From Ornithinicoccus hortensis (GTDB taxonomy: Bacteria > Actinomycetota > Actinomycetes > Actinomycetales > Dermatophilaceae), in assembly GCF_006716185.1 (NCBI RefSeq), contig NZ_VFOP01000001.1, positions 1,612,001 through 1,676,000 of the forward strand: 64,000 bases of DNA. The letters are read 5' to 3'. The first letter of the stretch is position 1, and each line of letters starts with the position of its first letter. The position numbers were made by a program, and so were the translations under genes. The notes below the pieces were generated by a model. That model was not told the DNA's origin and made no database searches. It saw nothing but the letters and a program-made list of their open reading frames with translations. Positions 5,320 to 21,514 of this stretch are shown here, one piece after another.

Positions 5320-5407
5320 GGAAGGGGGCGGGGTCGAGGAAGGGGGGATAGTACCGCCGGCTGAGATGTACGTGGCGCCGGGGGGAGTCGCGGCGGATAC
5401 TGGCACG

Positions 5408-6259
5408 GTGGACACCGTAGCGACGTCGGAGTTCCGCGCCACGAGGCTGGCGGTGCCGGGCGTCGCGACGACGGTTGGCTACCGGTCCACCGGGCTGCCG
5501 CAGGGCACCCACTTGGGGCTGCCCTCGCCATACCTGACCTTCATCTTCTCCCTCGAGGGGCCGGTCGAGACCACGTTCGACCCGGACCGGGGTGCGGACG
5601 ACCGGCAGGCCACGACGATCCTGCTCAGCGGGCTGCACACCAGCCCGGCGTTCGTGGTCCAGCCGGAGCGTCAGTCCGGCATCCAGCTGGCGATCAACCC
5701 GCTGGCCTCGCGTGCGCTCTTCGGGGTACCGGCGGGGGAACTGCCGCTCGTCGGGGAGGGGGAGGACGTGCTGGGGTCGGCGGCGGAGCGGCTGCGGCAG
5801 CGGCTGATGCAGGAGCTCCCCTGGGAACAGGGTTTCGCCGAGGTGGGTCGCTACCTGCGGCGCCGGCTGGAGGACTCCCGCACGCCGCCTCCCCGCGCCG
5901 AACTCGTGGCCGGCTGGACCTGGATCGCCCGGCACCGGGGGAGCGGGTCCATGGAGGGCCTGTCCCGTCACGTCCACCTCGGTCCGCGACAACTGAGCAC
6001 GCTGTTCGACCGGGAGTTCGGCGTCTCGCCGAAGCGGCTGAGCCGGCTGATGCGGTTCCACAACGCCAAGCGCCGGGTCGTGGCGACCACCCACGGCTCG
6101 GGCGAGTCGGTGGCCGACATCGCCGCCGACTGCGGGTATGCCGACCACTCCCACCTGGTCCGGGAGTTCCGGGAGTTCACTTCGCTGAGCCCCACCGGGT
6201 GGCTGGAGCACGAACGCCGAAACGTCCAAGCCGAGACGTACCCCTACCCCGAAGACTGA
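5408..6259 (+). CDS. AraC-family transcriptional regulator
   Basis: About 283 residues. The C-terminal third holds the two helix-turn-helices of AraC proteins: a first HTH around LSRHVHLGPRQLSTLFDREF, and a second around SVADIAADCGYADHSHLVRE ending in the usual phenylalanine-rich motif. The N-terminal 150 residues form an uncharacterised sensor domain. GTG 5408 is chosen because homology-like sequence begins there; an in-frame ATG at 5366 is possible, and neither start has a strong ribosome site. The VOC gene follows 4 bp after the stop, so this regulator probably controls or accompanies that gene. Confidence 0.8.
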   Translation: MDTVATSEFRATRLAVPGVATTVGYRSTGLPQGTHLGLPSPYLTFIFSLEGPVETTFDPDRGADDRQATTILLSGLHTSPAFVVQPERQSGIQLAINPLASRALFGVPAGELPLVGEGEDVLGSAAERLRQRLMQELPWEQGFAEVGRYLRRRLEDSRTPPPRAELVAGWTWIARHRGSGSMEGLSRHVHLGPRQLSTLFDREFGVSPKRLSRLMRFHNAKRRVVATTHGSGESVADIAADCGYADHSHLVREFREFTSLSPTGWLEHERRNVQAETYPYPED

Positions 6260-6263
6260 GGGC

Positions 6264-6719
6264 ATGGACACCACATCAGACTCCACGACCCCCGAGCCCC
6301 AGGCAGTCGCAGGCGGCGCGCCCCCGCCGCCCACGGTCTGGCCGACGCTGCGCTACCGGGACGCACCGGCGATGATCACGTTCCTGACCGACGTCCTCGG
6401 CTTCACCCGCACAGCGGTGTATGCCGACGGTGACGTCGTCGAGCACGCCCAGCTCGGGTGGCCGGAGGGCGGCGGCGTGATGCTCGGGTCGGTGCGTGAC
6501 GGCTCCGACTGGGAGCAACCGCCGGGCGGGGCCGGCTGCTATGTGGTCACCCGCCACGTGGACGAGATCTTCCGGCGGGCGCGGGCCGCGGGTGCGGACA
6601 TCCGGATGGAGCTGCAGGAGGAGGACTACGGCAACCGGAGCTTCGTGGTGGCGGATCCGGAGGGCAACCTCTGGAGCTTCGGCCACTACGCGGGGGAGCC
6701 GGACAACTCCGGTTCCTGA
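6264..6719 (+). CDS. VOC (glyoxalase/bleomycin-resistance) family protein
   Basis: A 151-residue single-domain protein. It has the PhnB/VOC beta-alpha-beta-beta-beta pattern: LRYRDAPAMITFLTDVLGFT at residues 29-48, and at the C-terminus VVADPEGNLWSFGHY, where the Glu/Asp-Pro-Glu-Gly-Asn strand supplies metal or substrate contacts. It starts 4 bp after the AraC-type regulator. Members bind or modify small hydrophobic toxins or catalyse metal-dependent lyase/dioxygenase chemistry; the substrate here is unknown. Its 3' end overlaps the convergent hydrolase gene by 34 bp. Confidence 0.82.
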   Translation: MDTTSDSTTPEPQAVAGGAPPPPTVWPTLRYRDAPAMITFLTDVLGFTRTAVYADGDVVEHAQLGWPEGGGVMLGSVRDGSDWEQPPGGAGCYVVTRHVDEIFRRARAAGADIRMELQEEDYGNRSFVVADPEGNLWSFGHYAGEPDNSGS

Positions 6720-8347
6720 GTGTCCGTCCCCGCCGGACCACGACCGTCCCCGGCCTTCTCCTCCCCGGCCTTATCCGCTCGGTCCTTCCTCGCTCCGTCC
6801 TTGTCGACACCGGCCGGGGTGCGCGTCCGGGACCTCGCCCTCTTCCTCGCGTCAGGGGCCAGCGACCTCTCCAGCTCCCCGGCGGAGGGGACCCATCCGG
6901 AGGCCGCCAGGTCTAGGGCTTCACGCAGGATCGTGGCGGCTGAGGCTGGGGCATCGTCGTCGGGGAAGGAGAAGTACAGGCTGTGGGCGAAGCCTGGGAC
7001 CAGCCGGTTGCGCCATGGGCGCGCCTCGATGCCCCGCGGTCCGTTCCCGGTCACCATGACGTCCTTGATGCCGGTGCCGTAGAGGGGGGCCAGCGGGCCG
7101 CCGAACCAGTCGCCGAAGAAGCCGAGCCGGGCGGGGTAGTAGAGATTGGTCCACCGGACGACGGCGAACGGCGCACCCTCGTGCAGCACGCGGCGGCTGC
7201 CCCTGGCCCAGGTAAAGAAGCGACGGGTCCCGTGGATCCGGTTGCCTTCCTCGAGTTCGTTCTGCGGGGGACAGGTGGGCTGCTCCCCGCGCAGCACCCG
7301 TTCCCGGAAGGCGAGCTTGCCCTTGGCCCTGATCAGCCGGTCGGCGAAGTACATCGGAGACCCGGCGGTGATCAGGTCGGTGATCCGCCAGGGGTTGCCC
7401 TGCTCGCGCAGCCCGATCCAGGCCGCACGCTGGGCGTCACGGAACGCCTCCAGTGCCCCGTCCTCCAGGACCGGGAGCACGCCGGGCCGGTAACCCTGGT
7501 CAGGTAGAGCCGAGGCGGCCTCCTCGAGGTCTGCCAGGCCACGGAACTGCTCCGGGGCGCGGGCCCCCGCGTTCTTGGCGTTGCCCTGGGCCCAGAGGTA
7601 GCTGATCGCGTCGTAGGCGAGGTAGCTGCCGAGGCTGTGCGCGACGACGATGATCCGGTCGTATCGGGGGCCGTCCCGCAGTCGTGCATCGTGCAGTCGC
7701 TGCAGCAACTCGACCAGGCCCTGTCGGATCTCCCGGCGCACGGCATACGACCGGGGCGAGGTGTCCAGGTAGCGGACCACGTCCACGAAGCTCGTGGTCA
7801 GCCACCCCGGGAGCACCTTGCCGACGACGAACGTCACGACGGCGGCGATGGCGCCACCGGAGAGGACCGTCCCGAGCAGACGGGTCACCAGGTCGCCCTC
7901 CCCGCCTCCGGCCAGCACCGAGGACCAGGGCCCCCACACCAGCGCCCACAGGGAGGCCAGGGCCGCGGCCCACAGCAGCAGCCACGCCCAGACCAGCCCG
8001 TACGGCACGCGGGTGATCGGGAGGACGAGGATCCGGCGGACGGTGTCCGTCAGGTCGGCCAGCCGGTTGCCCTGCATCAGGTGCGACCAGTGGTACTCGA
8101 AGAACTCGGTGTGGGCGTTCACCTCCACCTCCCCGTCGCGGCCGGTGACGGAGCGGGCGGGTGCCAGGAACCGGCGGGACTCGTACGACCCGGTCACCGA
8201 CTCGGGGCGGGAGTAGTAGGTCCGGGTGCTCCCGGTCCCGGGAGCCGGGTCCAGCGCGTTGTCGATGAAGCCGATGACGGTGCTCAGGGGGCGTTGCTCG
8301 CCCATGCCGTGGATGACGACGACGGCCTGTCGGATGTATTCGCTCAC
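6686..8347 (-). CDS. Membrane-anchored alpha/beta-hydrolase-like protein
   Basis: A 553-residue protein. The N-terminus VVVIHGMGEQRP resembles an oxyanion-hole strand of alpha/beta hydrolases, and IIVVAHSLGSYLAYDAI near residue 232 is a nucleophile elbow (GxSxG-like AHSLG with Ser). Between them are two hydrophobic helices at about residues 112-138 and 155-180. The last 60 residues are a low-complexity Lys/Arg/Asp/Gly-rich tail. A lipase or esterase acting at the membrane is a reasonable guess, but no specific family was recognised. The tail overlaps the convergent VOC gene by 34 bp. Confidence 0.65.
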   Translation of the reverse strand: MSEYIRQAVVVIHGMGEQRPLSTVIGFIDNALDPAPGTGSTRTYYSRPESVTGSYESRRFLAPARSVTGRDGEVEVNAHTEFFEYHWSHLMQGNRLADLTDTVRRILVLPITRVPYGLVWAWLLLWAAALASLWALVWGPWSSVLAGGGEGDLVTRLLGTVLSGGAIAAVVTFVVGKVLPGWLTTSFVDVVRYLDTSPRSYAVRREIRQGLVELLQRLHDARLRDGPRYDRIIVVAHSLGSYLAYDAISYLWAQGNAKNAGARAPEQFRGLADLEEAASALPDQGYRPGVLPVLEDGALEAFRDAQRAAWIGLREQGNPWRITDLITAGSPMYFADRLIRAKGKLAFRERVLRGEQPTCPPQNELEEGNRIHGTRRFFTWARGSRRVLHEGAPFAVVRWTNLYYPARLGFFGDWFGGPLAPLYGTGIKDVMVTGNGPRGIEARPWRNRLVPGFAHSLYFSFPDDDAPASAATILREALDLAASGWVPSAGELERSLAPDARKRARSRTRTPAGVDKDGARKDRADKAGEEKAGDGRGPAGTDTQEPELSGSPA

Positions 8348-8527
8348 CGTGCCTCCTCGTGCCGGGCCGACCTGGGCCGACCGGGGTGAGACCGCACCGT
8401 ATGGAGCGCGTCGGCCCGGTCGCTGATACGGGACCCGGCCGGGGACCCTCGACAGCCGGCGTGCAGCGCAGGATCATGGAGGGACCGGTCGCGCACCGGT
8501 GCCCGACCGGAGCACCAGGAGGCGGTG

Positions 8528-8905
8528 ATGGTCGCGGTCCTCAGTTACCTGGCCCTGTGCCTGCTCCCGGCTGCCGTGACGGCCGTCCTCATCCGTCTGG
8601 TCAGTTGGTTCGTGGGTCACGAGCGACCTGCCGCGACCACCGCGCCGGATCCGGTGCCGACCGCGCGCAGCCTGGAGGCACTGGTGGCCACGTTGCGCCG
8701 GCTGGAGACCGACTACGCGGCCGTGGAGGCCTCCCGTCTCCCGGCGCGCGCGCACCGGCTGCAGGCGATCAGCCTGGCCTACGACGACACCCTCAGGGAG
8801 TGCTGTCTGGCGCTGGAGATCCCGCCGCCGGAGAACCCGCCGCTGCCTCCGGTCGAGCGGATGCGGACCGAGGCGGAGCTCTCGCTGCGTGGCCTGACCT
8901 GGTGA
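8528..8905 (+). CDS. Small hypothetical protein with one N-terminal membrane helix
   Basis: About 125 residues. Residues 3-24 form one hydrophobic segment. The rest is a soluble, Leu/Arg-rich helical region (LEALVATLRRLETDY) with a proline-rich stretch before the C-terminus. AGGAGG at 8517-8522 sits 5 nt before ATG 8528, making this start better than the overlapping GTG at 8525. No family recognised. It lies divergent from the hydrolase gene, with a 180-bp gap between them. Confidence 0.6.
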   Translation: MVAVLSYLALCLLPAAVTAVLIRLVSWFVGHERPAATTAPDPVPTARSLEALVATLRRLETDYAAVEASRLPARAHRLQAISLAYDDTLRECCLALEIPPPENPPLPPVERMRTEAELSLRGLTW

Positions 8906-8923
8906 GAGGGGCCACGCCGGACG

Positions 8924-9196
8924 TCACAGCCGCACGGTGGCCAGGTGGTAGCTCATCGTCTTGCCGTGCCCGTCGAGCACCGGGGACCCGGTGACCCCGC
9001 CACCCAGCACCCCGGGCAGGGTGAACACCATGGCGTGCAGCTGCGGCAGCACGTTCCGGGACACCGGCCCGGTCAGCAGGGGTGCGTAGGCAGCGGTCAC
9101 GACCTCCTCGGTCAGCCGCTCGACCAGCGTCCGGTGGGCCGGCCCGCCCCGGGCGATGACGGCCAGGATCAGCGTGTCGCCCTTGTCACCGGCACG
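8924..9196 (-). pseudogene. AtuA-like C-terminal domain fragment
   Basis: The reading frame encodes about 90 residues that match the C-terminal domain of acyclic-terpene-utilisation protein AtuA and its stand-alone relatives: RAGDKGDT at the start, then LPQLHAMVFTLPGVLGGGVT and LDGHGKTM near the end. The gene stops at 8924. Upstream of about 9196 the frame merely reads antisense through the LysR remnant, and no start codon or N-terminal domain is present. This is the 3' stub of a larger gene that lost its front part. Confidence 0.6.
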
Positions 9197-9975
9197 CTGC
9201 GCACCACCCGGCGGGTCGCGCTGACCGCCGACGGCGCCGCCGTCGTGGCCGTGGCCCGTTCCGTGGTCGCGGACGTCGAGGCCGGCCTCGCCCACGTCGA
9301 GGGCTACTGTCCGGGACCCGGGGGTCGCTGCGGATCGCCACGCTCCCGTCGCTGGCGGCCACCCTCCTGCCGCCCTTCGTGCTCGCGCTGCGCTCGGCGC
9401 ACCCCGGGGTGAGCATCACCGTCGAGGACCGCCTGAGCGAGGGGGTGCTGACCAGCCTCGGCAGCGGTGCCGTGGACCTGGCGGTGACCGCGCTGGGCCC
9501 GGACCGGCCGCGCCAGGCGCAGGTGCTGCCGCTGGCCAGGGACGACTTCTTCCTGGCGGTGCCGCAGGGGCACGACCTGGCCGACCGGGAGGAGGTGACC
9601 TGGGCCGACCTGGACGATCGGGCGCTGGTCGGCTTCTCCGGCTCCTCCAGCATCCGGCGCCTGGTGGACGAGGCGCTGGCCGCGCACGGCGTCGAACCGT
9701 CCGGGACGATCGAGGCGCAGAACGTCGGGTCGGTGGCGGGGCTGGTTTCCGGGGGCCTGGGGGTCGCCGCGGTCCCCGGTTTCGTGCTGCCGCCCCTGGA
9801 GTTCGCCCGGTTGCACTACGTGCCGCTGGTGCCGACGGTGAGCCGGCGCATCGTGCTGCTCCGCGATGCCCGCCGGCCGCTCACCCCCGCCGTGCGGACC
9901 TGGGTCGACATGGTGACCGGTCCCGGTGCGCCCCGCCCCGTGATGCGCGGCGTCACGTGGGTGGCCACCGGCTGA
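9196..9975 (+). pseudogene. LysR-family regulator, DNA-binding domain lost and frameshifted
   Basis: The effector-binding domain is intact from about 9313 (GTRGSLRIATLPSLAAT) to the stop at 9975. Upstream, in a different frame, come LRTTRRVALTADGAAVV and the linker helix, the normal end of a LysR helix-turn-helix domain. Two lesions are visible: the first 40 or so residues of the HTH are missing, and the frame changes between about 9303 and 9312. The break at about 9196 coincides with the break in the divergent AtuA-like fragment. The product cannot bind DNA as a normal LysR protein. Confidence 0.7.
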
Positions 9976-9985
9976 GCGGCGCCGG

Positions 9986-10435
9986 TCAGGTGCGCAGGCC
10001 GTCCAGGGTCCGGCGCAGCTGCTCGACGGTCTTGTCCGCGAGCCTCCTGAACGCCAGGTGCATCAGCGGGTACGCCAGCCGGGACCAGCCGCGCAGCTCC
10101 ACCGTGGCGTGGTAGTCGACCACGGAGCCGGTCGTGTCCTCGCCGGCGGCGGGTGCGACCCGGATGTCGTCGACCGTCCGGGCGCCGGCGTTGCGCCCCT
10201 CGAAGACCACGCCGTCCGTGCGCAGCTCGACGAGGGTGTACTCCACCGTGGTCTCCCGGCCCAGCACCCTGGACACGTTGCGCCACCTCGATCCCACCCG
10301 GACCGGCCCGTCGTCCAGCCGGGTGCACGAGCGGGTGCCCGGATCCCACTCCTCGGCGTGGCCGAAGTCCTGCAGGTAGCCGACGACCGCCTCCGGGGTC
10401 GCGGTCACGGTGGTGCTGCGGGTGACCCTGATCAT
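9986..10435 (-). CDS. SRPBCC-family (START/polyketide-cyclase-like) protein
   Basis: A 149-residue protein starting MIRVTRSTTVTATPEAVV, then a long helix-grip pattern with DFGHAEEWDPGT and a C-terminal amphipathic helix (LADKTVEQLRRTL). SRPBCC proteins enclose hydrophobic ligands, so lipid binding fits its place in a lipid-modifying operon; that is inference. Its ATG overlaps the stop of the upstream SDR gene (ATGA), and it is the last gene of the five-gene series beginning at 14658. Confidence 0.8.
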   Translation of the reverse strand: MIRVTRSTTVTATPEAVVGYLQDFGHAEEWDPGTRSCTRLDDGPVRVGSRWRNVSRVLGRETTVEYTLVELRTDGVVFEGRNAGARTVDDIRVAPAAGEDTTGSVVDYHATVELRGWSRLAYPLMHLAFRRLADKTVEQLRRTLDGLRT

Positions 10436-11208
10436 GCGTGCTCCTTGGTAGTGGTCGTCGTCTTCGAGGTGCCCGAGGGCGCCGCCAACCGGGCCCACAG
10501 CCCGACCGGCACGAGGCGGGCGGCCTTCATCAGCACCGCCATCCGCAGCGGGAAGACGATCTCGGACCGGTCCTTGGCCATCCCGTCCGCGATCGCGCGG
10601 GCGGCCTGCCCGGCGGTGATGATGAACGGCATCGGGAAGGTGTTTGCGCTCGTCATCGGGGTATCCACGAAGCCGGGGCAGACGGTCTGCACCCGGACGC
10701 CGGTGCCGTGCAGCCCGGCGCGCAGTGACTCCAGCAGGTTGATCTGGGCGGCCTTGCAGGCGCCGTAGGCCTCCGCGCCGGGCAGCCCCCGGTAGCCGGC
10801 CACCGAGGCGACCCCGACGATGCTGCCGTGCCCGCGCTCGCGCATCCCGGGCAGCACCTCGGCGATGCAGGTCGCCATCCCGAGCACGTTGGTGTCCAGG
10901 TGCTTGGTGAAGGAGTCGAGGTCCAGCTCGCCGGGGCGTCCCTGCTCCCACAGCCCGGAGCAGACCACCACGGCGTCCGGTGGTCCGACGGCTGCCTCGA
11001 CCAGACCGGCGGCCTCGCGCACCGCGGCACGGTCGGTCACGTCGACCGGCACGACGGTCATCGTCCCCCCGGCCACGCGGGCCAGCTTCGCCCCGTCCCT
11101 CGCGGACACCGCGACCCTGGCGCTCCGGGCCTGCAGTTCACGGGCCAGCGCGGCCCCGATCCCCGAGGACGCCCCGACCACCCAGACGGTCGATCCGAGC
11201 AGCCTCAT
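10432..11208 (-). CDS. Short-chain dehydrogenase/reductase
   Basis: A 258-residue classical SDR. It has the nucleotide-binding motif GASSGIG (residues 12-18), a catalytic Ser in VGVASVAGYRG and the YxxxK motif in AYGACKAAQ. A basic C-terminal segment follows. It would oxidise or reduce an alcohol/ketone with NAD(P)(H); given its neighbours the substrate may be a modified fatty acyl chain (inference). Both ends overlap neighbours by ATGA: its ATG overlaps the stop of the methyltransferase gene upstream and its stop overlaps the SRPBCC start, so translation is likely coupled. Confidence 0.88.
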   Translation of the reverse strand: MRLLGSTVWVVGASSGIGAALARELQARSARVAVSARDGAKLARVAGGTMTVVPVDVTDRAAVREAAGLVEAAVGPPDAVVVCSGLWEQGRPGELDLDSFTKHLDTNVLGMATCIAEVLPGMRERGHGSIVGVASVAGYRGLPGAEAYGACKAAQINLLESLRAGLHGTGVRVQTVCPGFVDTPMTSANTFPMPFIITAGQAARAIADGMAKDRSEIVFPLRMAVLMKAARLVPVGLWARLAAPSGTSKTTTTTKEHA

Positions 11209-12590
11209 CGCGCGCCTCCCGCGTCCGCCGCCGGGGACCCGGCGCCGGCGTCCAACCCGAACTGCCACACGTCCAGGTGGCCGGCGCGGAAGCCGGCCTC
11301 GGAGTAGGCCAGGTAGTACTCCCACACCCGCTGGAACTGCGCGTCGAAGCCCAGGGCGCCGACCCGTTCCGCCCCGGCCCGGAACCGGCTGCGCCACTCC
11401 CGCAGGGTGCGGGCGTAGTCGTCGCCCATCCTGCGCCGGCCGTCGATCCGGAGCCCGGCGCGTGCGGCCGCTTCCTCGATCGCCTCGACCGAGGGGATGA
11501 GCCCGCCGGGGAAGATGTACTTGTGGATCCAGGTGTAGGCGTGCCGTGAGTCCAGCATCACCTCGTGCGGCATGGTGATCGCCTGGAGCCCGAACCGGCC
11601 GCCCGGGACCAGCGCCGCGCGGACCGCGGCGAAGTAGGCGTCCCAGTAGTCGTAGCCGACCGCCTCGATCATCTCGACCGACACGACCGCGTCGTAGCGC
11701 TCCCGGATGTCGCGGTAGTCCCGGACCTCGACGGTCACGCGGTCACCCAGCCCCGCCGCCGCGACCCGCTCCTGCGCGAGCCGGGCCTGCTCGGCAGACA
11801 GCGTGATGCTGTGCACCCGCGCGCCGCGCCCGGCGGCCTGGATGGCCAGCTGCCCCCACCCGGTGCCGATCTCCAGCACGCGGCTGCCCGCCCGGACGCC
11901 CGCGAGGTCCAGCACGCCGTCCACCTTGTGCCGTTGCGCGGCGGCGAGCAGGTCCTCGCCCGGCTGCGCCTCCGCACCCTCGAACCGGGCGCCGGAGTAG
12001 GACATGGTCTCGTCCAGGAAGGTCGCGAACAGGTCGTTGGACAGGTCGTAGTGCCGCGCGATGTTGGACCGCGCGCCCTCCGGGTCACCGCCCTCGTCCG
12101 CGGGGTGGCTCGGCTCCAGGACGCGCCGGAACCGCTTGAGCCAGCCGGGCACGAGGGTGGTCAGCCGCTCTGCGAGCGGGGTGAGCACGTCGGCCAGGTC
12201 GCTGCCCGGTGCGGGCGCCCACTCCCCGGCCTGGAAGCCCTCGCCGACACCGATGCTCAGGTCCGCGCCGATCCGGTCGAAGAACCGCTCGGTCGAGATC
12301 TCCAGCCGGGGCGCCCCCGCGCCGGGGGAGCCCAGCACCGTCCCGTCCGGCAGCACCAGCTGCAGGTCGAGGTCGCGGACGGCGCGGCCGACCAGGGCCC
12401 GGGCCACCCGCCCGCGCACCGGCGCCCGCCGGGTCCGCTGGACATCGGCCCACGGGCCGTCGGCCCGCTGGTCAGTGCCCTGCTTATCGGTTCGGTGGTG
12501 GGTCGGGGTGACGCTCGGGGCCGTGGCGGTCCCGGTCGGCGCGGGGCCGCCGAGGTCCCGCGTCGTGGGGCGGGCGGTGTCCTGGGTCAT
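11205..12590 (-). CDS. Cyclopropane-fatty-acyl-phospholipid synthase family methyltransferase (UfaA-like)
   Basis: A 461-residue protein. About 65 residues of low-complexity Thr/Pro-rich sequence precede the conserved part. The core has NIARHYDLSNDLFATFLD, typical of CFA synthases, SAM motif I VLEIGTGWGQLAIQAA and VVSVEMIEAVG. The family transfers a methyl group from S-adenosylmethionine onto the double bond of a membrane-lipid acyl chain, making cyclopropane, 10-methyl or furan-precursor products. Which product is made cannot be told. It is the third gene of an operon in the order FAD oxidase, DUF1365, CFA-type, as at mycobacterial ufaA1. Confidence 0.9.
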   Translation of the reverse strand: MTQDTARPTTRDLGGPAPTGTATAPSVTPTHHRTDKQGTDQRADGPWADVQRTRRAPVRGRVARALVGRAVRDLDLQLVLPDGTVLGSPGAGAPRLEISTERFFDRIGADLSIGVGEGFQAGEWAPAPGSDLADVLTPLAERLTTLVPGWLKRFRRVLEPSHPADEGGDPEGARSNIARHYDLSNDLFATFLDETMSYSGARFEGAEAQPGEDLLAAAQRHKVDGVLDLAGVRAGSRVLEIGTGWGQLAIQAAGRGARVHSITLSAEQARLAQERVAAAGLGDRVTVEVRDYRDIRERYDAVVSVEMIEAVGYDYWDAYFAAVRAALVPGGRFGLQAITMPHEVMLDSRHAYTWIHKYIFPGGLIPSVEAIEEAAARAGLRIDGRRRMGDDYARTLREWRSRFRAGAERVGALGFDAQFQRVWEYYLAYSEAGFRAGHLDVWQFGLDAGAGSPAADAGGAR

Positions 12591-13351
12591 GCGGGTCTCC
12601 TGGTGGACGGGGTCGGGATGCTCGTATGCGGTGAGCTGGGTCGAGGGAACACGGGGAGTCGGCGCAGCCACAGCCAGCTGCCGTGCAGCCGGATCCGGGC
12701 GCTGGTCTGGTGCATCACCAGCGGGGTGCGCAGCAGTGCCCTGGCCAGCTCGCGCCGGGTGGCCGGCCGGGGCCGACCGGTGAACGAGGCCGCCAGCACC
12801 GGGGCACCGTCCTGGTGGAGCACCACGGAGACGGACACCCGGTCCGGGGAGAGGTGCAGGCGCACGGCATACCGCCCGTCGACGGACAGGAACGGGGAGA
12901 CGTAGAACTCCTTGGGCACCGAGGCCCGGCCGCTCCGGTCGGGCTCGAGCAGCTGGGCGTGCCGCTGCCCGTAGGTGTTGTGCACCTCCAGCACCGACCA
13001 CCGCACCGTCCCGTCGGGGGCCACGCACCAGTGCACCGACAGCGGGTTGAACTCGTGCCCCAGCGTGCGCGCGCCGGCGAGCATCAGCACCCGGTCCTCC
13101 GGGCCGGGTGCCGTGGCCCGACCCGTGGCGACCGCGAAGTCGACCACCTTGTCCCGGATCGGGCGGGGGTCCTCGGGGTCGAAGTGCCCCCGGGTGGGGA
13201 AGGCGGCGACCAGGCGGGGGGACGGAACCTCGGCCAGGTCGACCAGCCACAGGTATCCGGTCATCCCGACGTCGTGGCGGACCGGGGAGAGCCTGCGGTG
13301 GGCGACCCGACCGCGCACGACGGCCGGGAGGGCCGGGGGTACGGCCCTCAC
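12587..13351 (-). CDS. DUF1365 family protein
   Basis: A 254-residue protein with the hallmarks of DUF1365: VRGRVAHRRLSPVRHDVGMTGYLWLVDL near the N-terminus in two consecutive blocks, LGHEFNPLSVHWC in the middle and VPKEFYVSPFL. The GTG at 13351 is the start because it overlaps the FAD-oxidase stop (GTGA) and matches the usual family start. The stop overlaps the methyltransferase ATG. DUF1365 genes nearly always sit between an FAD amine-oxidase-like gene and a CFA-synthase-like gene; their biochemical role is unresolved, with lipid modification the accepted context. Confidence 0.85.
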   Translation of the reverse strand: MRAVPPALPAVVRGRVAHRRLSPVRHDVGMTGYLWLVDLAEVPSPRLVAAFPTRGHFDPEDPRPIRDKVVDFAVATGRATAPGPEDRVLMLAGARTLGHEFNPLSVHWCVAPDGTVRWSVLEVHNTYGQRHAQLLEPDRSGRASVPKEFYVSPFLSVDGRYAVRLHLSPDRVSVSVVLHQDGAPVLAASFTGRPRPATRRELARALLRTPLVMHQTSARIRLHGSWLWLRRLPVFPRPSSPHTSIPTPSTRRPA

Positions 13352-14658
13352 CAGGTCGCCCCGAGCCGCTCCGCGGCCTGCACGCCGGAGCGGCACCCGT
13401 CCTCGTGGAATCCCCAACCCAGGTGCGCCCCGGCGAACGCCAGGCGCGGTCCTCCCGCACCGCGCAGTACCCCTGCCGCGGCGACCGCGACGTGGGTGAA
13501 CACGGGGTGCCGGTAGGTCATCTCCGCGACCACGGCACGTCCCGGCACGGTGTCCCCCGGGTTGAGGGTGACCACGAAGTCGTCGGGGGAGTCCAGCCCG
13601 TGCAGCCGGTTCATCCAGTAGCTGACAAGGACCGGACGGTCCCCGCCGGCGCAGTCCTCGAGCCGGTAGTTCCAGGAGGCCCGGGCCTGGCGGCGGTCGG
13701 GCAGCACGGCCGGGTGCCGGTGCAGCACCGTGCGGTTGGTGGAGTACCCGATGGCCGACAGGGCCGACTTCTCCTCGGCGCTCGCGTCGGCCAGCAGGGC
13801 CAGGGCGTCGTCGGCGTGGGTCGCGACCACCACCCGGTCGAAGGTGGCGGTGGTCCCGTCGCCGGTGCGCACGTCCACCCCGTCGTCGTGCCGCTCGACG
13901 GCGAGGACGGGGGCACCGCTGCGCGCGACCGGCACCCGGGCGACGAGCGCGTCGACGTAGCTGGCCGACCCGCCGACCACCGTCCGCCAGGTGGGGGAGC
14001 CGGTGACCGACAGCATCCCGTGGTGGTCCAGGAAGGCGAACAGGTGCCGGGCCGGATAGTCGCGGGCGTCCTGCCCGTTGGCGGACCAGACGCAGGCGAC
14101 CAGCGGGACCGCGAAGTGCTGCACGAAGTAGCGGCTGAACCCGCCGGCCCGCAGGAACTGGCCCCAGGTGAGGGAGCCCTGACCGCGGGCGGCGTCGCCG
14201 GCGTCGTCCGCGGCCACGTCGTCCTCGCCCGCCCCGAGCAGCCGCCGGGCCAGCCGGTGGAAGCGCGGCACCTCGGTGAGCAGCCGCACGAACCGCGGGT
14301 CCGCGGCCCGCCGGGGCTGGGCGAGGATGCCGCGCGGTCCCCGGCCCCCGGCATACGACAGACCGCACCCGCCGCAGGTGACCGACATGCTCATCTCGGT
14401 CTCCCGGGTCCGGACCCCGAGCTCGCCGAACAACCGCAGCAGGTGCGGGTAGGTGCGCTCGTTGTGCACGATGAAGCCGCTGTCGATCCGCTGCGACCGG
14501 CCGGCCGAGTCGGTCACCGCGTGGGTGTGCGCGTGCCCGCCGAACCGGTCATCGCCCTCGAGGAGGGTCACCCGGTGGCTGCCCGACAGGACGTGTGCTG
14601 CGGTCAGCCCGGACACGCCGCTGCCGATGACGGCCGCGGTCGGTCGCCCGTCAACCAT
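13348..14658 (-). CDS. FAD-dependent amine-oxidase-like oxidoreductase, first gene of the lipid operon
   Basis: A 436-residue flavoprotein. The dinucleotide-binding motif AVIGSGVSGLTAAHVL lies at residues 9-24, followed by LLEGDDRFGGHAHT. The C-terminal FAD contact is FAGAHLGWGFHEDG. The family belongs to the NAD(P)-binding protein/amine oxidase group found beside DUF1365 and CFA synthase; the enzyme may desaturate or oxidise a fatty acyl chain (inference). The ATG at 14658 is chosen for the AGGTGG 6 nt upstream; an in-frame ATG at 14739 would run through the operator repeats. It is divergent from the CarH-like gene, 125 bp away. Confidence 0.85.
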   Translation of the reverse strand: MVDGRPTAAVIGSGVSGLTAAHVLSGSHRVTLLEGDDRFGGHAHTHAVTDSAGRSQRIDSGFIVHNERTYPHLLRLFGELGVRTRETEMSMSVTCGGCGLSYAGGRGPRGILAQPRRAADPRFVRLLTEVPRFHRLARRLLGAGEDDVAADDAGDAARGQGSLTWGQFLRAGGFSRYFVQHFAVPLVACVWSANGQDARDYPARHLFAFLDHHGMLSVTGSPTWRTVVGGSASYVDALVARVPVARSGAPVLAVERHDDGVDVRTGDGTTATFDRVVVATHADDALALLADASAEEKSALSAIGYSTNRTVLHRHPAVLPDRRQARASWNYRLEDCAGGDRPVLVSYWMNRLHGLDSPDDFVVTLNPGDTVPGRAVVAEMTYRHPVFTHVAVAAAGVLRGAGGPRLAFAGAHLGWGFHEDGCRSGVQAAERLGATW

Positions 14659-14673
14659 GCTGCCCACCTCTGA

Positions 14674-14774
14674 TCTGTCTAGGGTTTGTCCTGGTCTCAC
14701 TCGTGCGTGACGTTGGCCCAACGTAGCGGGTATGTCCAATGTTTGTCTAATGTATGTCGAGGGATGGCTAGGAT
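14674..14774. promoter_or_regulatory. Divergent promoter with 11-bp iterons and a 15-bp palindrome
   Basis: Between the FAD oxidase and CarH-like genes, the plus strand carries TATGTCCAATG (14731-14741), TTTGTCTAATG (14742-14752) and TATGTCGAGGG (14753-14763), an 11-bp series. Two weaker units of the same kind lie at 14674-14684 and 14685-14695, near the FAD oxidase start. Between the groups is the perfect palindrome ACGTTGG-C-CCAACGT (14710-14724). TAGGAT at 14769-14774 would make a -10 box for an almost leaderless carH-like mRNA starting at 14784. Known CarH operators consist of 11-bp direct repeats, so these are good candidates; binding is inferred. Confidence 0.65.
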
Positions 14775-14783
14775 GTCCGCACC

Positions 14784-15722
14784 ATGTACACGATCAAGCG
14801 CGCCGCCGAGCAGACCGGGGTCCCGGTCGCGACGCTGCGCGCCTGGGAGCGGCGCTACGGCGTCGTCTCGCCGGCCCGCACGGAGAGCGGCTACCGGGTG
14901 TACGACGAGGAGGCACTGCGCCGGCTGACCCGGATGCGCGACCTGGTCGCCCAGGGGTGGGCGCCCAAGCAGGCCGCCGAGCAGGTGCTGGGCGACGCCT
15001 CCGCGCCGGGGGGCGAGCGGGGCCCTGCTGACCCCGGTGACGCCGGTGAGGTGCCGGCCGATGCCGCGGCCCGGTTCGTGGACGCGGCGGCGCGGCTCGA
15101 CGGGGTGGCGATCGCGGCGGTGCTCGACGAGGTGATGGCCCACGCCAGCTTCGAGGCATTCGCCGACGGGTGGTTGATGCCGGCGCTGACCGAGCTGGGG
15201 GAGGCCTGGAGCCGTGGCACGGTCTCGGTCAGCGGCGAGCACCTCGCGGCCCACGCGGTCCTGCGCAGGCTCGCCGCCGCCTACGAAGCGGCGGGACGAC
15301 CCTCCGCCGGTCACCCGGTCCTGATCGGGCTGCCCGCCGGTGCGCACCACGAGCTGGGTGCCCTGGCGTTCGCGACGGCCGCCCGGCGGCAGGGGGTCGA
15401 CGTGCTCTACACCGGACCGGACCTGCCCGCCGACGGCTGGGTCGACGGGGTACGCCGGCACGGTGCCGTGGCCGCGGTCGTGGCGGTGCCGATGGGGGTG
15501 GACGTCCCCGCAGCACAGGAAGCCGTCGACGCGCTCCGCGCCGCCGACCCCGACCTGCTGGTCGCGGTCGGCGGCGCGCACCACGGTGTGCTGCGGGGTG
15601 CCCTCGGGCTGGGGCACACGATCACCGGCGGTGCGGCCCGGCTGGTCGCCGAGCTCACCGACCGGGACCGTGCTGCCGGGGGCCGTGCCGGTCACCGGAC
15701 CGGTCTCACATCTCCGGCATGA
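14784..15722 (+). CDS. MerR-family regulator with B12-binding photoreceptor domain (CarH/LitR type)
   Basis: A 312-residue protein. The N-terminal MerR helix-turn-helix ([20 protein letters not shown], then RRYGVVSP) spans residues 1-70. The four-helix cap carries the Wx9EH signature as [12 protein letters not shown], which in CarH contacts the adenosyl group of adenosylcobalamin. The cobalamin domain follows with AHHELG, where the His matches the lower-axial ligand of DxHxxG although the Asp is replaced by Ala. CarH proteins repress in the dark as AdoCbl tetramers and release DNA in light. It probably represses the divergent lipid operon and itself. The 3' end overlaps the convergent fasciclin gene by 17 bp. 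Confidence 0.85.
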
Positions 15723-16440
15723 GGACGGCGTCGATCAGGTAGACCGTGGCGTTCTCGGTCTCGACGCCCCCGCAGATCACGGTGGCGTCGTTGACCGTCA
15801 GCGAGTCGCCCTCGCCAGCCACCTCGACGGTGCCGCCCTGCACGGTCGTCTGCTCGCCGACGACCTCCTCGGGAGACAGTTGGCCGGGCACCACGTGATA
15901 GGTGAGCACCGTGGTCAGCAGGTCGGCGTCGGTGGAGAGCGCGTCGAGGGTCTCCTGGTCGACCGCCGCGAACGCGTCGTCGACCGGGGCGAACACGGTG
16001 AATTCGTCCCCGTTGAGGGTGTCGACCAGGTCGACGTCCGGGTTCAGCTCGCCGGACACCGCGGCGACCAGCGTGGTGAGCAGCGGATTGTTGCTCGCCG
16101 CGACCGCCACCGGGTCCTGGGCCATGCCCTCGACCGACCCGGCGCCGTCCGGCACCGCTTCCGCGTAGGCGGCGCAGCCGGGCCCGACGAGGTTGCCGCC
16201 GGCCGCCATGTCCTCGGTCGTCTCCTCGGCCATGTCGTCCTCACCGGCCATGCCCTCCTCGGTGGCCATGTCGTCCTCGGCCGTGCCGTCGTCGGCGGCG
16301 TTGCCCTCGGACTGCTCGTTGCCGGGCATGTCGTCCATGCCGGCGTCGCCGTCGTCCCCGTCGCCGCCGCAGGCAGAGAGGGCCAGGGCCGAGGCAGCGA
16401 CGAGGGCCAGCAGGGACTTCTTGGTACGCAGGGTGCGCAT
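15706..16440 (-). CDS. Fasciclin (FAS1) domain lipoprotein
   Basis: A 244-residue exported protein. A signal peptide ends in the lipobox LALSAC (Cys at about residue 24). A 60-residue Asp/Glu/Met/Gly-rich linker and one FAS1 domain follow, with [15 protein letters not shown] and [20 protein letters not shown] lies 6 nt upstream of ATG 16440. MPT70/MPT83 of mycobacteria are related surface proteins controlled by SigK; the proximity here to the ufaA-like operon parallels that regulon. FAS1 proteins mediate adhesion, but function here is unknown. Confidence 0.88.
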
Positions 16441-16469
16441 GGTGGTTCCTTCCGTGGTGGGTGTCGGCA

Positions 16470-17926
16470 TCAGGTGACGGTGACCGTCACGTTGTGCCAT
16501 CCGGTCGACCCGTCGGGCGCTACTGGGGCCCGCTGGGACGTCTGTGTGTCGCCGGTCCGGTCCGTCGCGCGGACCTCCAGGCGGTGGGTGCCGGGGGCGG
16601 CCTCCCACTCCCAGCGCCAGGGGCGCCAGGTATGGGTGGAGTCCTCCTCGGCCAATTCGGCGTCCTGCCATTCGCCGTCGCCGACGCGGACCTCGACCCG
16701 CTCGATCCCCCGGGGCTGTGCCCAGGCGACGCCCGCGACGACGGCGCGGCCGGCGCCCAGTTGGGCGAACGGGCCGGGCACGTCGATCCGGGAGGACAGC
16801 TTGATCGGGGCCTGCTCGGCATACCCACGGTCGGTCCAGTAGGGGGTGAAGTCGGCAAACCGGGTGACCTCCAGGTCGACCAGCCACTTGGTGGCGGAGA
16901 CGTAGCCGTACAGGCCGGGCGTGACCATCCGGACCGGGAAGCCGTGCTCCAGGGGGAGCGGCTCACCGTTCATCCCGATGGCCAGCAGGGCCCCGCGGTC
17001 GTCGGTCAGCGCCGAGAGCGGGGTGCCGGCGGTGAAGTCGTCGGCGCTGGTGGACTTCACGGCGTCGGCGCCGGCCTGCACGCCGGCCTCCTCGAGCAGG
17101 TCGCGCATCGGTATGCCGAGCCAGGTCGCGTTGTCCACGAGGTCGCCGCCGACCGGGTTGGACACGCAGGTCAGGGTGATCCGGCGCTCGACGAGCCTGC
17201 GCTCGAGCAAGTCGGCGAAGCTGAGCTCCAGCGGGGTGTCGACCAATCCGTGGATCCGCAGCAGGTAGCCCTCGAGCGGCACGTCGGGCACGGTGAGGGC
17301 CGTGTCGACCCGGTAGAAGTCGGCGTTGCTGCTCAGGTACGGCGTCAGACCGGGGACCTCGAAGGTCACCCCGGTCGGCACCGGTGGCGCAGCCTCGGCC
17401 GGGGAGGGAAGGGTCAGGGTGTCCCGTGCCCCCGAGGCCGCGGGGCCGGCGCCGAGTCGGGCCCCTGCGCCCCCGACGGCGCCGACCGCCGCGACCGTTC
17501 CTGCGGCCCGGAGGAAGGCGCGCCGGTCGAAGCCGGGCGGCACCTCCCTGCCAGCCATGTCGTCGGTGAGCAGCACCCGGGTCCGGCCCGGTGCGCGCTC
17601 CGCCCAGGTCTGCGGGACGGGAGGCGAGGCGGTCCTGGCGTCGGTGGGGTGGGCGCTCGTGGGGCGGAGGGTCCGCAGCATCCACCACAGACCCCCGACC
17701 CCGACCACGGCCATCGCCACCACGGGGAGCAACCGCAGCGCTGTGCTCGCCCCGGCGGCCCGGTCGGTGAGGACCGGGCGGTGACGCCGGGGAGCGGGGC
17801 GCTGACACCCTCCCCGGCCAGGACCCCCGCCGCAGCCGCGACCAGGCCGGCCGCGGCCCCGCGGCGGCGGGCGCCGTGCGGACCGTGGGCCAGCGGTGGG
17901 CCGGTGGCGGGGTCGGAGGTGGTCAC
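16470..17926 (-). CDS. Sulfite-oxidase-like molybdopterin oxidoreductase with disrupted N-terminus
   Basis: The catalytic part is intact in one frame from about 17775 to 16470. It has a Tat-like segment [20 protein letters not shown], the molybdenum-ligand Cys in [14 protein letters not shown], and a C-terminal Ig-like dimerisation domain ending in WHNVTVTVT. The expected start is GTG 17926 (VTTSDPATG and one membrane helix), but that frame is lost at about 17776-17790. The related family normally has four N-terminal membrane helices; only the first and last are recognisable, so about 80 codons seem deleted along with the frame. A downstream start (ATG 17714) could still give a soluble or singly anchored enzyme. 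Confidence 0.7.
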
Positions 17927-18062
17927 ACCGGGTCTTCGGCGCCGGCGGGTCGGCGGATGGGTGCGGTCCTCCGGTCAGTGGTGCTGGCCAATATCCATCG
18001 CCCGGACCCCGGGGCCGCGTCGCGTCACCTTCCTTCGCGGGCACGCACGTAGCGTGGGGGGC

Positions 18063-18578
18063 GTGACCAGGGACTCGGCGGCTCGTGCCCGGTGGCGGCG
18101 TCGCTACCTGAGCCTCGGGTGGGGCGAGTGGACGGCGGCCGCGGTCTTCGCCGTCGTCGCAGCCACCGTCGTCGTGCCCCGGCTGGACGCCCGCGCGGCG
18201 CTGGCGCTCTGGTGGGCTCTCGCGCCGCTGCTCCTGGTGCTGGTCCAGGCGGGGGCCTACTGGCTGCTGGCGCGCAGTTGGGTGGGACGCGGAGCGATGC
18301 CGCCACGGGTGGCGGGGGCATTCCGGGTATGCCGGGTGCTGGGGCCTCCGGTGCTCCTGCTGGGGGCCGTAGGCGTCCTGGCGAACCACCCCGCGGGAGT
18401 CGCGGAGGCGCTCCTGGTGTGGGCGGTCTGGGTGTTCGGCATGGTCGAGTACCTCAACTACTACGTCGTCCGGCTCGCCTACCCCGTGGCCCACTGGGCC
18501 CGTGAGGTCACCCGGTGGCGCCGTCCGCGACTGGTGCTCGACCTTCAAGCGGCCCGGGGCACCGACGCCCGCCCGTGA
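18063..18578 (+). CDS. Hypothetical multi-pass membrane protein
   Basis: About 171 residues starting at GTG 18063 behind a G-rich ribosome site. Four hydrophobic segments are visible (about residues 25-45, 50-72, 88-108, 112-130), then a short basic cytosolic tail (WAREVTRWRRPRLVLDLQ). No family signature recognised. It is divergent from the Mo-oxidoreductase and convergent with the HNH gene. Confidence 0.65.
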   Translation: MTRDSAARARWRRRYLSLGWGEWTAAAVFAVVAATVVVPRLDARAALALWWALAPLLLVLVQAGAYWLLARSWVGRGAMPPRVAGAFRVCRVLGPPVLLLGAVGVLANHPAGVAEALLVWAVWVFGMVEYLNYYVVRLAYPVAHWAREVTRWRRPRLVLDLQAARGTDARP

Positions 18579-18609
18579 CGCAGCAGGGCCCCGGCACCTG
18601 GGCGTGCGG

Positions 18610-20079
18610 TCAGGCTGTCTCGGGTGCCGCCCCGAGGTCCCGGGGTGGCTTGTACCGGGTGTTGCGTCTCCACACCGCGCCCCTGCCGGTATCGCCGGGT
18701 CCCGTGGTCCCCAGCGGTTTGCGGAACTCGGGGATGCCGTCACGCGGGTTGAAGCGGATCACCCAGAGGCCCTGGTGGAGCTGGTGGTGGTGGAACGGAC
18801 AGAGCATCACGCCCTGGTCGAGGTCGGTCGGGCCCCCGGCGGCCCAGGCGTCGCCCGCGTGGTGGACCTCGCACCAGGCCGGCGGTCGGTCGCATCCGGG
18901 GGTGGCACATCCCTGGTCCCGTTGGGCGTAGGCGACTCGTTGGTGCCAGTCGAACAGTCGCTTCGTCGTGCCGTGGTCCAGGGGCAGGCTCGTGCCGTTG
19001 AAGACCTGCGGGAGGAGCTTGTGGGTGCAGGCCAGCCGGCGGATCTCCCCGGCGGAGAGGCGGACCCCGGTGCTCGTACTGCCGCACCCGGTTCCCGAAG
19101 CCAGCTTCTCCCAGGACAGGGAGACTGCGATCACCGCAGCTGAGCCGCCGGCGTGGGCGAACCCGTCGGTGGGCACGTGCTCGATCAGCGCGCAGAAGGC
19201 CTGCCCGAGCTTCTGCGGATACGTCCGTTCATCCGGCACCGGACCCGGCTCGCCCGCGCCGCACTGGGCCCGGGTGCGGATGTGGTCCCTGCGCGGAGCA
19301 GCGGATGCCTCGAGCATGGTCTTGAGCATCTCGCCCTGCAGGGTCGGAATCGTGAATCCGCCCCGATAGGTCCCGTTGCCGCTGTCGCGCAGCCAGAACT
19401 CGGTCCTGGCGCGGGCGCGGGCCTCCCGCGCCTTCACGATCGCCTCCTCGTCGGCGTCGGCCTGCTCGACGGTGCTCCGGAACACCTCACTGATCCGATC
19501 ACCCCGCCGGCGCAGGTCGCGCAGGCTCATCGTGGGTGCTTCGGCCAACAGGGTGTTCTCGGCCATCTCGCGGTCCTGCGGCGTGACATCGTCCGGGAGG
19601 CGGCTGAGTATCCCGGCGATCACGTCGGCCTGGGCCTGGCTGATCGCCCCGGTGGCAAATCCTTCCTCGGTGGCGACGGCCTTCGCCCTCGACAGGTTGT
19701 TGCCGAGCCGGACCAGATCGTCGCCGGTACGCCGGTCTCCGCCGAAGTCGGCGCCGAGCATGGATCCCGTCGAGGTCGCCCCGTCCTTGGCGGCGGTCCC
19801 CGCCGCGTCCAGGACCCGGGCGGCGGTCATCCGGTGCGCCGACAGTTGCTCACAGACCCGGCTCAGTCGGCCGTACAGGGCCCGGATCTCGGGCTCGGCC
19901 AGGCCCTCCCAGGCTGAGCGGTCCGTCGCATGGATCGCTGCCTCCACGGTGTCGACCATGGCCTCGAGCGGGTGGGAGGCCGGCGCCGGTGCGGTGCCGG
20001 CGGTGCCAGGGCCCACGTCGAGGGCGTGAGCGTCCGCGGCCGATTCCTCCTCCGACCCGACTGGCTGGACCGCCACCAC
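18610..20079 (-). CDS. DUF222 / HNH endonuclease family protein
   Basis: A 489-residue protein of the actinobacterial DUF222-HNH (13E12-like) family. The N-terminal two thirds is the alpha-helical DUF222 region with MTAARVLDAAG and ISQAQADVIAGIL. The C-terminal HNH motif is CATPGCDRPPAWCEVHHAGD, continued by LCPFHHHQLHQG. These proteins are common in multiple copies in actinobacteria and some have been acquired by mobile elements; biochemical roles are poorly defined. It stands alone between two gaps. Confidence 0.88.
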   Translation of the reverse strand: MVAVQPVGSEEESAADAHALDVGPGTAGTAPAPASHPLEAMVDTVEAAIHATDRSAWEGLAEPEIRALYGRLSRVCEQLSAHRMTAARVLDAAGTAAKDGATSTGSMLGADFGGDRRTGDDLVRLGNNLSRAKAVATEEGFATGAISQAQADVIAGILSRLPDDVTPQDREMAENTLLAEAPTMSLRDLRRRGDRISEVFRSTVEQADADEEAIVKAREARARARTEFWLRDSGNGTYRGGFTIPTLQGEMLKTMLEASAAPRRDHIRTRAQCGAGEPGPVPDERTYPQKLGQAFCALIEHVPTDGFAHAGGSAAVIAVSLSWEKLASGTGCGSTSTGVRLSAGEIRRLACTHKLLPQVFNGTSLPLDHGTTKRLFDWHQRVAYAQRDQGCATPGCDRPPAWCEVHHAGDAWAAGGPTDLDQGVMLCPFHHHQLHQGLWVIRFNPRDGIPEFRKPLGTTGPGDTGRGAVWRRNTRYKPPRDLGAAPETA

Positions 20080-20488
20080 ACACCCCCTTGCCGCGTCCCG
20101 ACTCCGCCGACCGGTGTCGCCGGAGCCCCCTCCCGAACTGTGCCCCCACCGTAATCGGCCCCATCGAGACGTGTCCGCACCGCGGTCGGAGCCTGTGGAC
20201 GGTGACGTGCTGTGGATGACGGTGACCCCGCCCGCCCGGCGCGCGGCGGGGGACCTGGCCGCCTGCAGGCCCGCTCCCGAACGGTGACCCGTTGAAGAGT
20301 TGTGGCGACTATTGCAGCGAGCGACGCGGGCGGAGCGCGGCGCTGCAGGCGTAAGGCCAGCCTAACCTAACTCGAACGTGGAGGCCATGGTGCCTCGTGT
20401 GATCCGCGACTCGGCAGTCGGGCCCGTGTCCACTTCGGCCGATCCGGCTGGTGGCCCGAGGGTCTGTCACCTGCTGGTGACCCCGAGG
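20080..20488. other. 409-bp intergenic region with an IdeR/DmdR-type iron box
   Basis: No convincing gene fills this stretch. It holds one IdeR-like palindrome (20352-20370, listed separately). An RBS-like GGAGG stands just before ATG 20387, whose reading frame runs antisense into the LLM oxidoreductase gene and does not look coding beyond the first codons. Confidence 0.5.
20352..20370 (+). promoter_or_regulatory. Candidate IdeR/DtxR iron box
   Basis: TAAGGCCAGCCTAACCTAA agrees with the 19-bp IdeR consensus TTAGGTWAGSCTWACCTAA at 16 positions. Its right half contains TAACCT, which could also be a -10 box for rightward transcription. No recognisable iron-uptake gene lies on either side. Confidence 0.55.
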
Positions 20489-21514
20489 TCAGGCGGACGA
20501 CTCCGGGAGACCCCACGCGTCGGCGAGCAGCCGGAAGGACCGGCGGCGCAGCTCCGGGTCGTAGGTGTAGGTCGTGATGATCAACTCGTCCAGGTCGTGT
20601 TCGGCCACGATGGCCTCCAACCGGTCCACCACCTCCTCCGGCGTGCCGACCGCGCGGAAGGAGTGCAGCCCGGACGTGAGCTCGAGGACCCCCTGCGGCA
20701 GGACGGAGCCGAGGTCCTCGACCGGCGGGTCGAGCGGCGCGGGCTGACCGGTGCGGATCCGTGCGGCCATCAGTCGGGCCGTGCTGAAGAGGAACTCCGC
20801 CTCCTCGGTGGTGGGGGCGACCAGGACGTTGACGCCGGCCATCACGGTCGGGCGGTCCACCTGGGCGGTGTCGGCGTCGGCCTGGAACCGCTCCCGGTAG
20901 AGCGCGATCGCCTCGGTCATCTGCTGCGGCGCGAAGTGGCTGGCGAAGGAGAACGGCAGCCCGAGCAGGGCGGCCACCTGGGCGCCGCCGGTGGAGGAGC
21001 CCAACATCCACAACGGCACCTTGGTGCCCTCGCCGGGCAGCGCCCGCACCTTGCGCTCACCGTCGGGGTCGCCCAGGTAGCCCACCAGGTCCAGCACGTC
21101 CCGCGCGAACGTGTCCAGCTGCCCGGACCCGCGTTGCAGCGCCGCGGCCGTCATCGGGTCGGTGCCCGGCGCCCGTCCGAGGCCGAGGTCGAACCGGTCG
21201 CCGTAGAGCGTGGCGAGGGTGCCGTAGTACTCCGCCACCATCAGCGGGGAGTGGTTGGGCAGCATCACCCCGCCCGAGCCGAGCCGGATCCGCCCGGTGT
21301 GCTCGGCGATGTGCCCGAGGAGCAGTGAGGTCGCCGACGCCATGAACGCCTCGCTGCCGTGGTGTTCGGCCACCCACAACCGGTGGTACCCCAGCCGGTC
21401 CACCTCCTGCGCCAGCTTCGTCGACTCGGCCAGGGCGTCGGCCGGGGACATGCCCCGGGACCGCGGGGCCAGCTCGAGGACGGACAGGGGTATGCGGTGG
21501 GCAGGGTTCGGCAT
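20489..21514 (-). CDS. LLM-class flavin-dependent oxidoreductase (MsnO8-like)
   Basis: A 341-residue luciferase-like monooxygenase. It has IPLSVLELAPRSRG at the N-terminus, LWVAEHHGSEAF, RIRLGSGGVMLPNHSP and FDLGLGRAPGTD, the standard pattern of the MsnO8-type LLM group. These enzymes use reduced FMN or F420; which one applies here is not evident. The OsmC-like gene lies upstream on the same strand after a 48-bp gap, so they may form one transcript. Confidence 0.9.
   Translation of the reverse strand: MPNPAHRIPLSVLELAPRSRGMSPADALAESTKLAQEVDRLGYHRLWVAEHHGSEAFMASATSLLLGHIAEHTGRIRLGSGGVMLPNHSPLMVAEYYGTLATLYGDRFDLGLGRAPGTDPMTAAALQRGSGQLDTFARDVLDLVGYLGDPDGERKVRALPGEGTKVPLWMLGSSTGGAQVAALLGLPFSFASHFAPQQMTEAIALYRERFQADADTAQVDRPTVMAGVNVLVAPTTEEAEFLFSTARLMAARIRTGQPAPLDPPVEDLGSVLPQGVLELTSGLHSFRAVGTPEEVVDRLEAIVAEHDLDELIITTYTYDPELRRRSFRLLADAWGLPESSA

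Follow-up and report, generated by a model that had tools for sequence, protein, structure and literature searches.

A CarH-type regulator gene divergent from a putative furan fatty acid operon in Ornithinicoccus hortensis

The window considered here is a stretch of 64,000 nucleotides (64 kb) from the genome of Ornithinicoccus hortensis (contig NZ_VFOP01000001.1, positions 1,612,001 to 1,676,000), which is complete as one contig of 3.94 Mb. At 9986..15722 of this window, a MerR-type gene on the plus strand faces five overlapping genes on the minus strand, and it is considered probable, at roughly 0.6, that the locus encodes a coenzyme-B12 photoreceptor-repressor of the CarH/LitR class I type, which regulates both its own gene and, divergent from it, an operon for furan fatty acids. 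By analogy with CarH, the regulator bound to adenosylcobalamin (AdoCbl) would in the dark occupy two sets of tandem 11-bp repeats, O1 and O2, and block both promoters, and light would break the Co-C bond, causing the oligomer to fall apart and both promoters to open. A UfaM-like enzyme would then methylate a monounsaturated phospholipid acyl chain, a UfaD-like flavin adenine dinucleotide (FAD) enzyme would introduce a conjugated double bond, and a UfaO-like DUF1365 protein would insert O2 and close the furan ring. The product would be a membrane scavenger of singlet oxygen, with a short-chain dehydrogenase (SDR) and an SRPBCC protein in accessory roles. Papers are cited below by their PubMed Central (PMC) numbers.

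The CarH-type regulator and its operator-like repeats

The regulator (14784-15722, plus strand, 312 amino acids) contains a MerR DNA-binding domain and both B12-binding domains, of the 4-helix-bundle and the Rossmann kind (Pfam MerR_1, B12-binding_2 and B12-binding), all above the Pfam cut-off. A preliminary description of this DNA had noted Wx9EH and an AHHELG cobalamin motif in the protein, and these are indeed found at residues 142-153 and 187-192, respectively; H189, the second histidine of AHHELG, aligns with the histidine of the GERHEIG stretch in Thermus thermophilus CarH, which is the cobalt ligand His177. The light-response signature (GxxW, EH, GxxH and GxxxP, taken from PMC11796333, with spacing limits of our own) is complete between residues 139 and 215 as G139xxW142, E152H153, G186xxH189 and G211xxxP215, and the predicted fold is that of CarH. 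An adenosyltransferase is present in the genome, and the nearest full-length homologue among the relatives searched is the regulator of G006 (61%). The domains, the signature and the predicted fold support placing the regulator in the CarH/LitR class I AdoCbl photoreceptor type, with B12 binding and a light response as predicted properties.

In Thermus and Bacillus, the DNA sites recognised by CarH are runs of three or four tandem 11-bp repeats of the form nnnnTnnACAn that overlie promoter elements (PMC9304148), and two candidate operators of this kind lie in the 125-bp gap between the divergent genes. O1 (14733-14760, minus strand) has three TnnACA repeats in 11-bp phase (TCGACA, TAGACA and TGGACA) and ends 23 bp from the regulator start codon; O2 (14676-14692, minus strand) has one full and one imperfect repeat, AGGACAAACCCTAGACA, and lies 17 bp from the start codon of the FAD gene. 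The triple TnnACA pattern has a single match in the window (0 in 100 shuffles) and two in the entire genome of 3.9 Mb (backwards control 0), and an operator such as that of the gap was reached in only 4 of 200,000 dinucleotide shuffles of its 125 bp. When all 17-mers on both strands of the window were ranked with a matrix of 18 sites, chosen by resemblance from the loci of relatives and including no site of the window (7 further pair sites, their surroundings unviewed, were left out), three places in the gap came first to third, the first two being O1 and the third O2. The repeat pair TNGACAAACATTNGACA, with one mismatch allowed, was found at 19 places in 14 of 38 genomes (control 0), all 14 of them from the genus of O. 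hortensis; in the window's own genome this pattern, which passes over weaker sites such as O2, matches at O1 only.

The repeats accompany the regulator in related loci as well. Of 79 loci examined, 11 were dropped (no FAD match of 80% length or no DUF1365 match), and among the 68 that were usable a repeat pair at most 650 bp before the FAD gene was found in 6 of 10 with a strict-signature CarH and in none of the 58 others (Fisher p 1.9e-6). With the looser CarH signature the counts are 6/12 and 0/56 (p 8.4e-6), and with any MerR match 6/15 and 0/53 (p 4.6e-5), all of these p-values being too good since related species are included; leaving out the window, the strict counts become 5/9 and 0/58. 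The strict pattern fixes Wx9EH and is failed by Streptomyces-type regulators with Wx10EH; L049, L086, L094 and L101 pass the looser one. In another genus of the same family (L078), carH is divergent from the FAD gene and two pairs lie in the gap. More broadly, 97 MerR matches cover more than 60% of the query, of which 55 carry the signature, 25 have FAD and DUF1365 genes in the locus and 18 have both. The named-genome set comprises the best 80 of at least 534 loci, picked by CarH similarity, and the presence of DUF1365 in 10 and FAD in 9 of these is not an estimate of frequency.

The second exact triple in the genome (G000:C1:2970728-2970755; L028 1501-1528) stands directly before a short open reading frame of about 52 codons and could be a second target or a chance match. 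A triple repeat in G016 (L042 7894-7921, minus strand) precedes an SDR-like gene that is not close to carH or crt, and is a possible additional CarH target.

The operon and its cassette in other genomes

The six-gene divergent locus, with an operon in which every junction is an overlap, was borne out by coordinates and Pfam domains: the four junctions overlap by 4 bp each, as GTGA where the FAD gene stops and the DUF1365 gene starts and as ATGA at the three that follow. The first of these minus-strand genes (14658-13348, ATG start, 436 amino acids; Pfam Amino_oxidase) encodes a ufaD-like FAD protein, a putative acyl desaturase, and the second (13351-12587, GTG start, 254 amino acids; Pfam DUF1365, E 2.7e-55) a ufaO-like DUF1365 protein, the putative O2-using furan-ring former. 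The third encodes a ufaM-like S-adenosylmethionine-dependent methyltransferase of the cyclopropane fatty acid (CFA) type with a putative fatty acyl substrate (12590-11205, 461 amino acids; Pfam CMAS, E 2.2e-83). Two conserved companions complete the operon, namely the SDR (11208-10432, 258 amino acids; Pfam adh_short) and the SRPBCC protein, a possible lipid binder (10435-9986, 149 amino acids; Pfam Polyketide_cyc2).

DUF1365 was found in 70 of 396 Actinomycetota genomes. The loci fetched number 69 (the G028 locus, L038, stands outside these), and in 58 of them the FAD, DUF1365 and CFA genes share a strand and the gene order of the window, which together with the shuffles of the gap puts the locus beyond chance. 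The FAD protein is 41-67% identical to the products of FAD genes adjoining DUF1365 in other loci and 37% identical to that of Ensifer L052, where the two genes are not adjacent. The SDR shares 53% identity with its counterpart following the methyltransferase in Janibacter terrae and 44% with that beside the cassette of Azospirillum lipoferum. An SRPBCC homologue occurs close to the cassette in L030, L031, L034, L049, L084, L125 and L126. On an Aeromonas plasmid the genes run MerR–phrB–NTF2–SDR–FAD–DUF1365–CFA, and a Streptomyces plasmid has FAD–DUF1365–CFA–DUF1295 with a B12-type MerR that failed the strict signature and passed the looser one. In seven gamma- and deltaproteobacterial metagenome-assembled genomes (MAGs; L142, L145, L148, L150, L162, L171 and L184), the locus holds a CarH bearing the signature together with FAD and DUF1365 genes, and in six of them the methyltransferase adjoins DUF1365, the seventh (L162) being cut by the locus end. 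Given the spread of the cassette in Actinomycetota, many members of this phylum may produce furan fatty acids or lipids related to them, and different light or stress regulators may be attached to the same three genes.

Several further observations concern neighbouring genes. In seven Actinomycetota loci (L112, L114, L115, L117, L119, L120 and L121), DUF1365 lies beside a sigma-factor match with no FAD or CFA match, which is a second type of DUF1365 locus. An epimerase-like gene is often near CarH or the cassette (L030 9212-10648, L031 9823-11301, L125 3195-4613) and is fused to TspO in L125; TspO binds porphyrins, which would fit a link to photosensitisers. Convergent with the regulator gene, at 15706-17723 on the minus strand of the window, lie genes for a fasciclin-domain lipoprotein (PF02469) and a molybdopterin oxidoreductase (PF00174). 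The targets of SigK in mycobacteria include fasciclin proteins, and the mycobacterial sigK locus also holds a similar cassette. For sigK itself, PMC7509140 describes only autoregulation, which acts through the Rv0449c promoter. Just past the operon end (9379-9975, plus strand), an open frame gives a match to the LysR substrate-binding domain and none to a DNA-binding part, and is possibly a truncated or frame-shifted LysR gene.

Lipid product, light control and their alternatives

The product is likely to be a methylated furan fatty acid rather than a generic change of the acyl chain, because the FAD-DUF1365-CFA order is that of ufaD-ufaO-ufaM in Rhodopseudomonas palustris (RPA2571-2569), an assignment made by domains and gene order and not by direct comparison with the proteins of R. 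palustris or R. sphaeroides. It is unlikely, albeit well worth weighing, that the same light switch would instead yield a methyl-branched or cyclopropane chain, with DUF1365 not forming a furan. In favour of such a product, the mycobacterial UfaA1, of a similar gene set, was reportedly once proposed to make 10-methyl chains. For the methyltransferase, the best NCBIfam names are those of cyclopropane fatty acid synthases, none of which reaches its cut-off, and UfaO function has been reported for two alphaproteobacteria (PMC7380195). Against such a product, a tree of 102 CFA-type proteins (a quick method, with no characterised UfaM among its rows and methyltransferase matches of 750 bp or less left out) places every one of the 81 cassette copies, which come from Actinomycetota, Proteobacteria and a deltaproteobacterial MAG, in one group with support 98; E. 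coli Cfa, the second copy of this genome and 19 copies from outside cassettes all fall elsewhere. The position of DUF1365 between the FAD and methyltransferase genes in most of the Actinomycetota loci fetched fits a fixed three-step pathway. The place of E. coli Cfa in this tree and the NCBIfam scores speak against an E. coli-type cyclopropane synthase. The second CMAS copy of the genome, at 1693466 (L001), stands apart on a long branch and lies beside an AI-2E transporter gene. Same-genus cassette copies occupy four places in the tree, which hints at transfer.

Several results weigh against a furan operon under CarH control. The NCBIfam CarH equivalog model gives the regulator 125.8 bits against a cut-off of 400, so that the protein is to be called a CarH-type homologue and not an NCBIfam-certified CarH equivalog. 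A scan of the gap gave no sigma-70-type promoter and no terminator. The exact triple has 15 places in 13 of the 38 genomes (own included), with 4 for the backwards control, and many of these matches are TCCACA-rich and look like DnaA-box arrays; the triple pattern alone is thus unspecific in relatives. No operator pair lies at the FAD gene in 4 of the 10 strict-signature CarH loci (L029, L032, L033 and L092), and among the 69 Actinomycetota loci CarH is near the cassette in only 4 by the strict signature, the window included, and in 7 by the looser one, with a sigma-factor match in 21. Lastly, the complete genome has no PF00487 or PF03405 fatty acid desaturase match, a search that did not extend to other sources of unsaturated chains, while the known Ufa pathway begins from cis-vaccenate. 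The alternatives are another origin of the unsaturated chain or a different product, and the lack of these matches also speaks for the other products considered above.

The observation that the window holds no carotenoid or photolyase gene was widened to the complete genome, which has no match to PF00494 (phytoene/squalene synthase, the one carotenoid family searched) and none to PF00875 (photolyase, in a search that did not extend to PF04244-type photolyases). In nine same-genus genomes free of DUF1365, the CarH stretches (L039-L041, L043-L048) include crtB in four (G014, G006, G004 and G016), a small sample that does not extend to carotenoid genes in the other cassette-bearing species. This gene content suggests that either protective output, carotenoid or cassette, can come under the sensor's control. 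From these four crtB-bearing species without DUF1365, and from the operon and operators of O. hortensis with no PF00494 or PF00875 match, it can be proposed as a tentative and somewhat doubtful possibility that the B12 sensor has been re-wired within the genus between carotenoids and furan fatty acids, the membrane lipid being the only known light-protective output in O. hortensis.

As to the signal, the regulator might sense the supply of coenzyme B12 and not light, with the apo-protein freeing the operon when AdoCbl is scarce. CarH needs AdoCbl for DNA binding, so that lack of B12 should derepress as well (PMC9304148), and the genome's adenosyltransferase is compatible with such sensing. This is nevertheless very improbable, as the photoreceptor signature retains its GxxW and EH residues, ufaM of Pseudomonas (PMC9758184) and a CFA gene of Vibrio cholerae (PMC5241685) are induced by light, and a photolyase gene lies inside the Terrabacter operon. 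It is equally hard to credit that CarH controls only itself, with the operon under another factor such as an extracytoplasmic function sigma factor, as in alphaproteobacterial SigE-ChrR: SigE-ChrR genes do lie beside cassette genes on Azospirillum and Ensifer plasmids, and the sigma-factor matches counted above point the same way, but the genes called at 5366-22039 of the window (three match no family) give no sigma-factor family match, O2 lies at the FAD gene, and in three same-genus species (L030, L031 and L034) the repeat pair stands directly before the cassette FAD gene though the signature-bearing CarH is about 5 kb off.

Comparison with known systems

In R. palustris, RPA2571-2570-2569 encode UfaD, UfaO and UfaM, the enzymes that form methylated furan fatty acids on phospholipids; these genes sufficed in an R. 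sphaeroides triple mutant. UfaD has a NAD-FAD-binding domain akin to phytoene desaturases, and UfaO is a DUF1365 protein that uses O2 (PMC7380195). The O. hortensis operon shares with this pathway the three protein types and, with R. palustris, the gene order, and the pathway is linked to singlet oxygen (PMC7380195). It differs in its actinobacterial host, in the SDR and SRPBCC genes inside the operon and in its CarH-type neighbour, as opposed to the ufa genes of R. sphaeroides, which belong to the SigE-ChrR singlet-oxygen response (PMC6852236).

The preliminary description had proposed that light acts directly on membrane acyl chains, perhaps as protection from singlet oxygen. Its CarH-type regulator, divergent operon, membrane-lipid output and singlet-oxygen link are supported, but the proposal was overstated in that light induction of such genes has been published before (PMC9758184; PMC5241685) and the neighbour set recurs in named genomes. 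In Pseudomonas mendocina, light raises ufaM expression 25- to 33-fold, and the class II LitR region also has SDR, FAD and photolyase genes (PMC9758184). As in O. hortensis, a LitR-family gene (PplR/PmlR) lies there beside SDR, FAD and ufaM genes, with phrB also present; unlike in O. hortensis, the class II protein keeps one of the two B12-binding domains, works with LOV proteins and is thought not to bind B12 (PMC9758184). The O. hortensis regulator has both B12 domains and the AdoCbl signature, in a genome with no photolyase (PF00875) match. In V. cholerae, the CFA-type VC1122 is likewise induced by blue light in a MerR/ChrR circuit, although MerR is placed there downstream of reactive oxygen species and the product is described as cyclopropane (PMC5241685).

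The pairing of a LitR-type regulator with this gene set is thus already known; it is uncommon and recurs in other bacteria. In the open-access PMC literature, covered mostly at the level of titles and abstract beginnings, no class I CarH controlling a ufa operon was found, and a B12-type sensor with operator repeats on a lipid operon is the part not found in print there. Should CarH prove to have a natural target in the chemistry of membrane lipids, B12-based green-light sensing would gain a wider role, and the locus offers a compact divergent promoter on which such sensing can be tested.

A search of other genomes, as the preliminary description had suggested, showed that the neighbour set recurs in J. 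terrae NBRC 107853 and Terrabacter sp. Root181. Their CarH homologues (55% and 47%, respectively) are encoded divergently from FAD-DUF1365-CFA, and repeat pairs lie in the intervening gaps. J. terrae has all six genes, with operon overlaps of 4-7 bp, and Terrabacter five of the six, with a photolyase gene at the SDR position. In both, SRPBCC lies upstream of carH rather than last in the operon and more genes follow, in J. terrae Rce1-like and epimerase-TspO genes. With CarH of T. thermophilus, Bacillus megaterium and myxobacteria, the O. hortensis system shares domain order, cobalamin residues, predicted fold and a tandem 11-bp TnnACA operator, and it differs in that their targets are carotenoid genes (PMC9304148; PMC10442372), as opposed to a lipid operon in a genome with no PF00494 match. 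The locus thus joins a known regulator type to a known enzyme cassette, a pairing that is well supported as coherent and recurring.

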